From Nitrospirota bacterium (GTDB lineage Bacteria > Nitrospirota > Thermodesulfovibrionia > Thermodesulfovibrionales > JdFR-86), in the NCBI GenBank assembly GCA_016207905.1, contig JACQZC010000071.1, forward strand, positions 1 to 40,089: DNA of 40,089 bases. Reading direction: 5' to 3'. Position 1 is the first letter of the stretch, and each line of letters begins with the position of its first letter. Below are positions 4,792 through 9,514 of the stretch, in pieces. The notes under the pieces were generated by a model. It had not been told where the DNA came from and searched no databases. It saw nothing but the letters and a program-made list of their open reading frames with translations. Made by a program: the position numbers and the translations under genes.

Positions 4792-7122
4792 CTATATCTT
4801 TACTGTCTTTAAAAGGGCAGAGTTTGTTACAACGGAAAGAGAGCTTAATGCCATTGCAGCTGCCGCAACAATAGGGTTTAGCAGTCCAAATGCCGCAACC
4901 GGGATTGCAATCGTGTTATAGCCAAATGCCCAGAAAAGGTTCTGCTTTATCTTACGCATAGTTGCCCTGCTTAATTTTATTCCCTTTATGACATCCCTCA
5001 GGTCGTCCCTGACAAGGATAATTCCACCTGTTTCCTTTGCAATATCTGAGCCAGAGCCGATTGCAATTCCAATGTCTGCCTGTGCAAGGGCAGGTGCATC
5101 GTTTATTCCATCTCCAACCATTGCCACTACCTTGCCTTCTGCCTGAAGGTCTTTTATGACCTTTGCCTTATCCCCTGGAAGGATATTAGATACGATTTTC
5201 TCGATTCCAACTCTAAAGCCAATTGCCTTAGCAGTTCTTTCGTTGTCCCCTGTGAGCATAACGACCTCTATGCCTTCTGTCTTAAGCTCTCTTATGACAT
5301 CCTCTGCATGCTCTTTAAGCGTATCTGAAACTGCAATCAATCCAATAAGCTTTTTTTCTCTGACGACAATCATCACTGTATTGCCTTTTTTTTCGAGTCC
5401 TGAGATTGCTATCTCTTTATCTCCAATATCGACACCCATGTCCGCTATCAGCCTTCTATTGCCGATTGCGATTTCACTGCCATCATAGAGAGCCTTAACC
5501 CCATGCCCCGGGACAGCCTCAAAAGACTCTGCATCAGGGATGCTCAAGCCTTTCATCTGTGCCATCTTCACTATTGCCTCTGCAAGCGGATGCTCAGAGC
5601 CTTTCTCTGCAATCGAGGCAGTTTGTAAAACCTCATCTTCTTTAACGCCAAGCTCTAAAGAGGGCAGTATCTCGACCACCTCTGGCTGTCCTTTTGTGAG
5701 AGTTCCTGTCTTATCAAAGACTATAGAGCTTAGTTTTTCTGCCCTCTCTAAGTATTCGGCTCCTCTTATGAGAATCCCAAGCTCCGCACCCTTTCCAACT
5801 CCAACCATCAGTGCCGCAGGCGTGGCAATACCCAATGCACAGGGGCAGGCTATGATTAAGACCGCAACAAAAGAAAGAAGCGCCATGGTTGGGTTAGCCA
5901 TGATTAGCCATATAAGGGCAGTTAGTATTGCAATTCCTATGACCGAAGGCACAAAATACGATGCGACCTTATCCGCAAGCCTCTGTATCCCTACAGAAGA
6001 TGCCTGTGCCTCCTCCACAAGCCTGATTATCTGGCTCAATGTCGTGTCAGCACCAATCCTCGATGCCCTGAACTTGAATGAGCCGACCTTGTTCATGGTT
6101 CCGCCTATTACCTCATCGCCTGATTTTTTCTCAACAGGAACGCTCTCTCCTGTGAGCATCTTTTCGTCCACAGAGGAATGCCCCTCTATTACAACCCCAT
6201 CAGTTGGGATTTTTTCCCCGGGCCTTACAACTACAGCCTCGTTAACCATAATCGATTCAGCAGGGATTTCAACCTCTTCGCCATCCCTTATGACCTTAGC
6301 TGTCTGTGGCTTGAGGTCAAGCAGTTTTCTGATTGCGGCAGAGCTTCTCTTTTTTATTATCTCCTCCATATACTTTCCTAAAAGCACAAAGGCTATGATT
6401 ATAGCCGAGACCTCGAAATACACATTTTTCTCCTCACCAGGCAGAATCTTCGGGAAAAACACTACAAAGGCACTATAGATATATGCAGTTGATGTGCCTA
6501 ATGCAATAAGGAGGTCCATGTTTGCTACACGCTTTTTTATGGCATGATATGCACCTATAAAAAAACCTTTTCCTCCAAATACCATAATTGGAGTTGTAAT
6601 AATGAAAAGCCACACACCCCATGTAAACCATGGAAGCCATGGGATTGGAACCCATGTAAGAACAGTTGCACCTGCGGCAAGCCCTAAAAACACGGCGGCC
6701 CTGAAAACAGCAAGTGCAAGGACACCTGTAAGGGCAATGGCAACCCTTCTTTTCATGGATTTAAGCTCTGCCTCAGGAGCCTCGAATGTCCTCACACAAT
6801 CCTCGGAACAGAAATAATACTGTCTTCCTGCCATCTCCCTTTTTATGGAGCGCTCCTTTGGAATGACCATTCCGCATATAGGGTCTTTTGCCATCTCTCC
6901 AATTGCCTTCTTTGTTTCGGAAATCAATGCCTCCATTGAAGAGACTTTTGTCATCTTTGGCTTTATAAGTGGTTTTTTGCCTAGGAAAGACTCAGGGTCT
7001 TTGTCAAATCTCTCCTTGCACATGGTCGAGCAGAAATAATATGTAGTGCCTTTATAAGTGGATTTGCCTTTTGAAGATGTGTCCTCTATAGTCATGCCGC
7101 AAACAGGGTCAATTACCTTCAT
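4792..7122 (-). CDS. Copper/silver-type P1B ATPase with two N-terminal YHS domains
   Basis: A heavy-metal exporting ATPase (776 aa). Two YHS metal-binding domains come first (residues about 2-45, with DPVCGM and YYFCSTMC; and 79-120, with DPICGM and YYFCSEDC) in place of the usual HMA domain. Then follow membrane helices, TGES (324-327) in the actuator domain, the CPC ion-binding motif (426-428), phosphorylated D470 in DKTGTL, the SEHPLAEA motif, and GDGINDAP. These are P1B-1-type Cu(I)/Ag(I) features. The frame opens with TTG at 7152, but ATG 7122 has a clear GAGGAGGT site and begins exactly at the first YHS domain. It overlaps the end of the methyltransferase gene by 14 nt. The nearby methionine-rich protein supports copper. 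Confidence 0.95.
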
Positions 7123-7726
7123 GTAACCTCCTCGATTTCCTACATGCACCAAAAACTATTATACCATCTATGTGCCTCAGGGTAATTATATCAAAGCCCT
7201 CGGAGATAAGGGCTTCATGGAGCTCCTTAAGTGTAAACATTCCGCCTTCTGGATGTGCTGTAAGAGCCCTTATGGGAAGACTTTTCAGAAGTGGAGCAAG
7301 AAGCTCATCGAAGAAAAACTCTCCTTCTAATTTTAAGACCCTTCCTACTTCTTTAATTGCCTTTCTCCAGTTCTCTGTATGATGTATCACGCCAAAGGAA
7401 AAGACTGCATCGAATCTCTCCGATGGCTCATCTAATGCCATGACATCAGCTATCTTGAATTCCACATTGTCTTTAAGGCTTGGGCAGAGGCGCTTTTTTG
7501 CCTGCTCTATCTGCTTAGGGTCTATATCGGTTGCAATAACCTTTTCTGCACCAAACCTTCGGGTTATTACCTCTGCCCCTACACCCCTTCCGCATCCAAT
7601 CTCAAGGCACAAAGGATAATTCTCCTTGCCAGCCATCTTCTTTAGCATAGGCCCTTCTATGTGCCTTTGGAGGAATGCCCTTAAAGGGCTGTTCGTTATA
7701 AGGCGCTCGATTATATTGAGTTTCAC
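7109..7726 (-). CDS. Class I SAM-dependent methyltransferase
   Basis: The 205-residue protein has the SAM-binding glycine motif [13 protein letters not shown] near residue 40, an acidic motif II (VIATDID), and [12 protein letters not shown] as motif IV region, the pattern of the UbiE/Methyltransf_11 group of small-molecule methyltransferases. The substrate cannot be read from sequence. The start is GTG, 10 nt after the methionine-rich gene, with no strong ribosome binding site, so translation may be coupled to the gene upstream. Its 3' end overlaps the copper ATPase start by 14 nt, placing it in a probable four-gene operon. Confidence 0.88.
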
Positions 7727-7736
7727 TGTCTAAGGT

Positions 7737-8312
7737 TTAGTGCCCATGAGGGTCTTTTCCGGGCGTTTCCTCCTTTATATCGGGTTTTTCCATTGGCATC
7801 ATACACATCGGACATGGTGTAATACATTCGTATGCCTTTTTCATCATCTCCATCATCTCAAGCTGCGACTCTGCTGTTGCGGTCTGTGGGTCTTTTATGT
7901 GAATCTCATGAAGGTCTATTGCCTTTTTAAGCCATTCCTCTATGCATTGCATCTTGCCCTTCATTTGACCAAAGGGCTGACCCATCATACCCATACCCAT
8001 CATGCCCATGCGACGGGACATCATCTGCTTCATCTTTTTACGCATCTGAGCCATTTCCTTCATCAGCTTTTTCCGTGCCCCTTTTTCTGCAGTCATCATC
8101 TGCTCCTGTACATCGAGCATATTGTCCATCATCTCAGCCATCTCCTGCATCTGCTCCTGCATCATCATCTGCTGACCCATCATCTGGTTCATCATCTGCA
8201 TCATAGGCATCTCCTCACCCTTCATGCCCTTCATCTGACCTTTTTGCTCTTCAGGCTGTGCCCATGCAGTCGCACAAAATACAAGCAATAACACAATAAC
8301 CAACCTTTTCAT
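7737..8312 (-). CDS. Secreted methionine-rich protein, putative copper binder
   Basis: The 191-residue product begins with a signal peptide (MKRLVIVLLLVFCATAWAQ) and is extraordinarily rich in methionine: about 40 residues, many as MM, MxM or MMxxMM. Toward the end come CITPCPMCMMPM and a terminal HGH. Methionine and cysteine clusters of this kind bind Cu(I) or Ag(I) in periplasmic proteins. The frame extends to 8489 but ATG 8312 follows AAAGGAGG and starts the signal peptide. It lies upstream of a methyltransferase and a copper ATPase in the same direction, which supports a metal role, but no named family is recognised. A structural coiled coil with fortuitous Met content is the alternative. 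Confidence 0.85.
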   Translation of the reverse strand: MKRLVIVLLLVFCATAWAQPEEQKGQMKGMKGEEMPMMQMMNQMMGQQMMMQEQMQEMAEMMDNMLDVQEQMMTAEKGARKKLMKEMAQMRKKMKQMMSRRMGMMGMGMMGQPFGQMKGKMQCIEEWLKKAIDLHEIHIKDPQTATAESQLEMMEMMKKAYECITPCPMCMMPMEKPDIKEETPGKDPHGH

Positions 8313-8326
8313 TCCTTCCTCCTTTC

Positions 8327-9445
8327 TTACCTTCTGATTTCCCTCGATATCTGCACATATCTTGCAATACCGTTTCTCGTTATCAGCCCAACCATCTTTT
8401 CTCTGTCCATCACAATCAATCTTCCCTTGTCCATATTTATCATCTGCTCGAGGGCTTTTACGGCATCGTCTCCTTCCTCTGCCTCCCATGCCTTATTATG
8501 GGGTATAAAGATTTCCGATACCCTGACATTCATCCAGTTTTCTTTCAGGACATTCTTTATCTCCTTTAGTGTTAGAATGCCGAGGAATTTTCCGTTCTCT
8601 AAAACAGGAAATCCGCCATAACCATACTTAAGGAAATACTCATTCACTGCGGTGTCCACTGTCATATCAGTCGCAACCGTTACAATGTCCTTTACCATTA
8701 TGTCTTTGACCTTTATGCTTCTGAGTGCCTCCTCAAAGCTTGCCCTCTGACTGCTTGCCTGCGCCGCACTATAAAGAAACCACCCTATGAGCATAAACCA
8801 GAGCCCTCCTGCAAACCCTATGAATATGGAAAACAAACCAAAGATTATAAATGCCATAGAGATTTTTTGTCCATAGCCTGCGGCCTTTTTTGTTGCGTAA
8901 AAGAAATCTCCTGTCTTTCTCCAGAGAATTGCCCTTACGACCCTGCCTCCATCCATAGGGAATCCGGGGATTAGATTAAAGACACCCAATATGAGGTTCA
9001 GATGAGAAAGATACCGAAACAGGGCTTTTAGTGCCTGACCATCAAAGACGCTATAAGCAAGAAAAAATATCACCGACAGAAGAAAACTCGAAATAGGACC
9101 TGCTATAGCCATCTTAATCTCTACACCCGGGCTCTGAGGTTCACCCTTCATCTCTGCCACACCTCCAAAGATAAAAAGGGTGATGCCTGATATCGAAATG
9201 CCGTATCTCAGTGCAACAAAAGAATGCGAAAGCTCATGAAGGGCAACGGATATAAAAAGCAAAAGTGCTGCCATAGCTCCACTTAGCCAGTATGAAAATC
9301 CAGGAAGCTCGGGAGCGGCCTTTGGAAAATAAAATGTAGACAAAGACCATGTAATCAAGCCGAATATGATAAGCCACGAGAAATGCACCTTTATCGGTAT
9401 TCCCATAACCGTGGCTATCCTTAGAGAGCCTGTCTGAAGTGTGTT
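8327..9445 (-). CDS. M50 site-2 protease family protein with CBS pair
   Basis: A multi-pass membrane metalloprotease (372 aa). HELSH gives the HExxH zinc motif within a membrane helix, and NLIPGFPMDGGR supplies the second conserved motif with the third ligand Asp. The C-terminal part (about residues 245-365) is a tandem CBS domain, which usually senses adenine nucleotides. Site-2 proteases cut membrane-embedded substrates such as anti-sigma factors; the substrate here is unknown. The ORF can start at ATG 9475, but GTG 9445 has AGGGG 5 nt upstream, and the ATG has none, so GTG is preferred. It is followed 14 nt later by the methionine-rich gene, probably in one operon. Confidence 0.9.
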   Translation of the reverse strand, partial: NTLQTGSLRIATVMGIPIKVHFSWLIIFGLITWSLSTFYFPKAAPELPGFSYWLSGAMAALLLFISVALHELSHSFVALRYGISISGITLFIFGGVAEMKGEPQSPGVEIKMAIAGPISSFLLSVIFFLAYSVFDGQALKALFRYLSHLNLILGVFNLIPGFPMDGGRVVRAILWRKTGDFFYATKKAAGYGQKISMAFIIFGLFSIFIGFAGGLWFMLIGWFLYSAAQASSQRASFEEALRSIKVKDIMVKDIVTVATDMTVDTAVNEYFLKYGYGGFPVLENGKFLGILTLKEIKNVLKENWMNVRVSEIFIPHNKAWEAEEGDDAVKALEQMINMDKGRLIVMDREKMVGLITRNGIARYVQISREIRR

Positions 9446-9514
9446 CACAATATCCCCTACAAAAAAGCATAGCACAATGGGAAATTAAATCAAGTAATTT
9501 TAAGGTATGGGGCT

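Follow-up and report, generated by a model that had tools for sequence, protein, structure and literature searches.

A methionine-rich exported protein near a Cu(I) ATPase as a candidate copper sponge carrying a conserved helical hairpin

What might an exported protein, more than a fifth of whose residues are methionine, do close to a copper ATPase? The question is raised by a minus-strand gene in a 40,089-nucleotide stretch of DNA from a Nitrospirota bacterium, the whole of which is called the window here. An earlier note on this DNA had described a secreted protein of 191 residues with about 40 methionines and read it as a Cu(I) sponge or chaperone of no nameable family. The count is indeed 42 Met (22%), behind a signal peptide, against a background of 2.5% in the 27 other window ORFs of at least 150 aa (binomial p = 4e-27); the second Met-richest ORF of that size reaches 4.3%. 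The methionines had also been seen as clustered in MM and MxM. However, these pairs (13 and 9, respectively) are not more frequent than in shuffled sequences, and it is the MxxM spacing that is enriched instead (18 versus 9.4 in shuffles that keep the composition, p = 0.001), a spacing that is helical as judged from the sequence.

The start codon is an ATG preceded by AAGGAGG, and homologues elsewhere keep the reading frame at 50–60% identity, indicating that the frame is real. Taken together, the AGGAGG site, the signal peptide and the frame-keeping homologues show that the product is a real exported protein. On the opposite strand, the His/Leu-rich ORF at 7740-8291 (+), of 183 aa, is no gene; it mirrors the Met codons (as CAT) and should not be annotated.

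Table 1. Features of the Met-rich gene and its surroundings, in window coordinates
Feature	Position	Strand	Remark
Met-rich exported protein, CDS	7737..8312	-	191 aa, 42 Met; homologues in other genomes
Ribosome-binding site AGGAGG	8318..8323	-	directly 5' of the ATG; read from the sequence
Signal peptide MKRLVIVLLLVFCATAWA	8259..8312	-	AxA-type cleavage before Q19, assigned by eye; A-x-A followed by Q kept in relatives
Module A, residues 36-104, Met-rich	8001..8207	-	helices predicted with low confidence at 39-72 and 77-104; Met spaced at a helical period
Module B, residues 114-164, conserved helical hairpin	7821..7973	-	C123/C163, H135/H138, M153/M154/M157; AlphaFold2 and 44 copies
CPMC segment, C167-C170	7803..7814	-	present only in the window orthologue; alignments
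C-terminal HGH	7740..7748	-	HxH ending in nearly all bacterial relatives (final residues of every member)
M50 site-2-type protease, two CBS domains	8327..9475	-	14 nt upstream of the Met-rich gene; same neighbour in L020
SAM-dependent methyltransferase	7109..7726	-	10 nt downstream of the Met-rich gene; kept neighbour in several related loci
Cu(I) P1B-1 ATPase, two YHS domains	4792..7122	-	CPC, YNx4P, MxxSS; start moved to ATG at 7122 as in relatives

Along the minus strand, the M50 protease gene is followed by the Met-rich gene, the SAM methyltransferase gene and the ATPase gene. The earlier placement of the Met-rich gene between the protease and a YHS-type copper ATPase was therefore correct on the protease side, but the methyltransferase gene separates it from the ATPase. 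With its revised start, the ATPase gene overlaps the methyltransferase gene, and the ATPases of relatives begin at the same point (MKVIDPVC). The ATPase scores above the cut-off of the copper model TIGR01511 and carries CPC, YNTIAIP and MALSS, the motif set of the P1B-1 Cu(I) signature. The Met-rich gene and the gene for a Cu(I) exporter thus probably belong to one operon, separated by a single gene.

The methyltransferase (MKLNLxERLITNNPLRA..QRxIEGPMLxKM) recurs next to genes of the Met-rich and module B family, at L019:4091-4699, L020:7570-8181, L023:6689-7285, L049:4262-4858, L051:5331-5939 and 7219-7677, L052:10182-10781 and L055:1971-2567. ICMT/PEMT-like membrane methyltransferases and cyclopropane synthases also recur near the module B family.

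Alignments of the window protein with its relatives reveal two modules, followed by a variable linker and the terminal HxH. In the window protein, the signal peptide ends in AWA before the Q. Module A follows the pattern MMQMMMxMMxMQEKMMxGxKPAEKKxMMxxMxxM, and module B, of about 50 aa, the pattern C-x3-WLxxAIxLHExHxKDPxTATxxSQxEMMxxMxxAYxC. The methionines of module A follow a helical period of about 100 degrees in 15 of 18 bacterial proteins (shuffle p < 0.05). Two further elements had been singled out earlier, a CITPCPMC segment and the terminal HGH. Both are present, but their conservation differs: C123, C163 and the HxH tail are conserved among relatives, whereas the extra CPMC cysteines, C167 and C170, are private to the window orthologue. 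The two modules also occur apart. Module A stands without module B in L024, L025 and L026, with a YHS ATPase adjoining in the first two, and module B stands with little or no module A and few Met in L022, L023 and L049, so the hairpin need not accompany a sponge.

The AlphaFold2 model of the window protein, computed from a two-row alignment, has a mean pLDDT of 52, which rises to about 83–86 across residues 121–160. Module B is modelled as two helices (114–140 and 147–164), and module A as helical with pLDDT below 55. The helix limits, rather than the coordinates, suggest an antiparallel hairpin whose open end would bring C123 and C163 together, with H135/H138 facing residues 149–154. A Foldseek search of the model against the PDB returned nothing at E <= 0.001 (best 0.44, to ING4 helices), which is no surprise given the mean pLDDT of the model and a hairpin of only two helices.

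A search of 60 relatives found homologues of the window protein in 11 other genomes, and a scan of contigs with the single sequence, which detects close relatives only, found one in Methanosarcina sp. DH2. With a profile of module B, matches were obtained in 21 of the 396 genomes of the home phylum and in 8 of the 150 genomes of the order to which the Methanosarcina genome belongs, one of them a marginal 24-residue match; among 345 genomes of that archaeal phylum there were three, all already found. In total, 44 copies of module B occur in 28 proteins: 21 bacterial proteins of one phylum and one Methanosarcina protein have a single copy, and six archaeal proteins of 321–559 aa, with 47–82 Met, have 3–4 copies in tandem. 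Across these copies L128 is invariant; A131, H135, P142, T146, S149 and A160 are each kept in 43 of 44, M154 and M157 in 41 of 44, H138 and C123 in 34, and C163 in 30 of 41. As judged by sequence, the window protein is a member of a conserved family that is not represented in Pfam, NCBIfam or the PDB.

The Methanosarcina protein (L014:7557-8246) begins with near-identical MHCCMMGDHSANGT repeats, another metal-rich sequence, and continues into one module B hairpin. A decayed copy in genome G190 (L059:6560-6910) joins the family signal peptide to a short TTTDASH remnant with a partial module B match, next to a YHS Cu ATPase.

We then considered the genes around these relatives. A Cu ATPase above the TIGR01511 cut-off lies within 6 kb of the gene in 17 of the 22 bacterial genomes with a match (one being the decayed G190 copy), a frequency with p of about 3e-25 if each genome is generously allowed a 2% chance and the genomes are treated as independent; they are not independent evidence, because synteny can be inherited among related genomes. 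Five bacterial genomes have no such ATPase nearby. In one of these the gene sits with CusCBA-type genes (L023); of the remaining four, three carry it on short or ending contigs. Homologues outside metal contexts, which according to the earlier note would have refuted the sponge or chaperone reading, are thus mostly not seen. On the archaeal side, the Methanosarcina and G539 copies have a TIGR01511 ATPase of the HMA-CopA type within 3 kb, and the Methanosarcina gene adjoins an HMA chaperone as well; in the other five of the seven archaeal loci, no Cu ATPase comes as close as 6 kb (it lies at 8 kb in G540 and at 15 kb in G530). The search for Met-rich homologues beside P1B ATPases that had been proposed therefore finds them, and the Cu(I) sponge or chaperone reading gains support at the level of sequence.

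Among 100 neighbouring proteins, the commonest families are YHS (15), E1-E2 ATPase (12), methyltransferases (9), PEMT/ICMT (8) and HMBD (6), with OEP, YtkA and SHOCT also present. In L022, the neighbours were confirmed to be complete CusB and AcrB-type pump proteins. Since the partners differ from locus to locus (YHS ATPase, HMA-CopA or CusCBA), we argue that the link to copper is functional and not only inherited.

Two other proteins recur in these clusters. A fusion of a YHS domain with a pyridine-nucleotide disulfide oxidoreductase is encoded at L052:11540-12610, L018:7310-8377, L016:10004-11071, L055:2669-3730 and L021:287-1360. The other is a Met-rich family with no relation to the first (302–315 aa, about 12% Met), with a lipobox-like LxGCGGGG and the motif GTxSGTAxKGPVSxA, which is encoded directly next to module B at four loci (L017:6114-7061, L022:7398-8330, L049:7269-8177 and L054:5878-6789); its L017 member has no Pfam match.

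The impression that the protein fits no nameable family was borne out. Searches of the window protein against Pfam, NCBIfam and PDB sequences gave chance-level matches only, and the Pfam DUF305 model matched neither this protein (to E 1) nor 31 relatives (to E 0.05). Against 72,556 plasmids, tblastn of the protein found no relative, and no homology to plasmid-borne SilE/PcoE, at E 0.01, and the module B consensus gave a single weak Streptomyces match (E 0.2) in the plasmid collection. The PDB matches of the module B profile, to leucine-rich repeat proteins, were rejected; they rest on 15–18 residues of the type LkqAxxLHELHxx, which is repeated in leucine-rich repeats. In the literature we found no paper describing a Met-rich, copper-ATPase-linked protein with the module B hairpin.

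By export, Met content and linkage to Cu(I) efflux, all read from sequence, the window protein nevertheless fits the functional class of Met-rich extracytoplasmic Cu(I) proteins. CusF and SilF likewise handle periplasmic Cu(I) or Ag(I) together with a Cu ATPase and CusCBA, but CusF is a small beta-barrel, whereas the window protein is predicted to be all-helical and shows no sequence match to it in Pfam, NCBIfam or the PDB. SilE, an exported Met/His-rich protein whose gene accompanies those for a P1B ATPase and RND efflux, binds Ag(I) and Cu(I) experimentally and acts as a multi-ion sponge (PMC5008109). SilE and PcoE, from the sil/pco operons of Enterobacterales, resemble the window protein in being exported, Met/His-rich, and disordered or helical; they differ in having ten His and 10–15 Met, against four His and 42 Met here, in the SilE-type MxxH/HxxM motifs, of which the window protein has none, and in lacking its additional conserved hairpin. 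CopM, of the DUF305 proteins of cyanobacteria and others, is also exported and Met-rich, with Cu(I) binding established experimentally and homologues adjoining RND, ATPase and chaperone genes (PMC4335983), but the window protein lacks the DUF305 HH motif and has H-x-x-H as its conserved pair. The copper storage proteins Csp1-3 are helical too, and the window protein would similarly hold many Cu(I) ions; they use Cys-lined four-helix bundles (PMC9484137), whereas Met would take that place here and only two of five Cys are conserved in relatives. As the sequence tests for SilE/PcoE and for CopM failed, we file the protein under neither. It is, on sequence grounds, a new family inside a known functional kind, and would act like SilE/PcoE and CopM.

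We consider it likely that the window protein, with its two modules, binds Cu(I) after export and serves as an extracytoplasmic receiver and sponge for copper from the adjacent P1B-1 ATPase. This reading draws on the signal peptide, the 22% Met, the placement of Met on one face of predicted helices, the conserved hairpin and the operon-type spacing from the ATPase. The ATPase would export Cu(I), which the Met-rich protein would receive and soak up; Ag(I) would suit the same ligands. The Met-rich helices would give thioether sites of moderate affinity for several Cu(I) ions. A C123-C163 bond would staple the open end of the hairpin, placing H135/H138 beside M153/M154/M157, so that the hairpin might serve as a better-defined His/Met site or as a docking face for the pump, and the HxH tail may add a Cu(II) site. 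Copper could pass onward where CusCBA is co-encoded, and would only be sequestered in the window genome. In this draft genome (98% complete), MsrA and MsrB are both absent, and no CusA scores above the cut-off of its model, a 104-residue RND fragment being all that was found. Onward transfer to a Cus system is therefore unlikely there, and, in the absence of both Msr enzymes and of a full-length CusA-type pump, local sequestration of the exported Cu(I) is favoured.

The strongest competitor is a targeted periplasmic metallochaperone of the CusF kind, which would bind few ions and mainly deliver Cu(I) leaving the ATPase to another acceptor, either CusCBA or a cuproenzyme, instead of storing it in bulk. 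The gene does share a cluster with ATPase and CusCBA-type genes in several loci (L016, L018, L052; L022), and the small, folded module B is better conserved than the rest of the protein and stands alone in L022, L023 and L049. However, the window genome has only the RND fragment and no CusA above the cut-off, 42 Met far exceed the needs of a chaperone site, and the PDB sequence searches show no CusF similarity; we therefore regard this role as unlikely.

A sponge for another soft or borderline metal (Ag, Hg, Zn or Cd) exported by the neighbouring ATPase is highly improbable, since the ATPase has the P1B-1 motif set and passes the copper-specific cut-off, and thioethers bind Zn and Cd poorly, even if Met/His-rich sponges such as SilE also take Ag(I) (PMC5008109). 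Equally remote is a sacrificial sink in which Msr-recycled methionines would shield the envelope from ROS or HOCl: the Met content is very high and copper stress has been linked to Met oxidation in E. coli (PMC9302797), but the window genome has neither MsrA nor MsrB, MsrA is missing from 12 of the 24 family-bearing genomes, no Msr family is among the listed recurrent neighbours, and conservation extends to His, Cys and HxH positions.

Beyond the sponge itself, we tentatively propose, at somewhat less than even chances, that module B represents a new domain for handling Cu(I), mobile between proteins and built as a helical hairpin with a disulfide staple and an H-x-x-H and Met site. Common to one bacterial phylum and to Methanosarcina and its order, it would have been combined with metal-rich sequences of unrelated kinds (Met helices in the bacteria, MHCCMMGDHSANGT repeats in the Methanosarcina protein, 3–4 tandem hairpins in other archaea), and might be where docking or nucleation of the sponge takes place.

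If these readings are true, annotators could name a set of currently unmodelled Met-rich proteins, and copper handling outside the cytoplasm would gain an undescribed domain and protein family, both in bacteria that have been little studied and in archaea of the Methanosarcina order, for which little is known of what happens to copper once CopA has exported it. Moreover, a module of about 50 aa, single in bacteria and repeated 3–4 times in tandem in archaea, would provide a compact test of how metal capacity evolves through repeat number.
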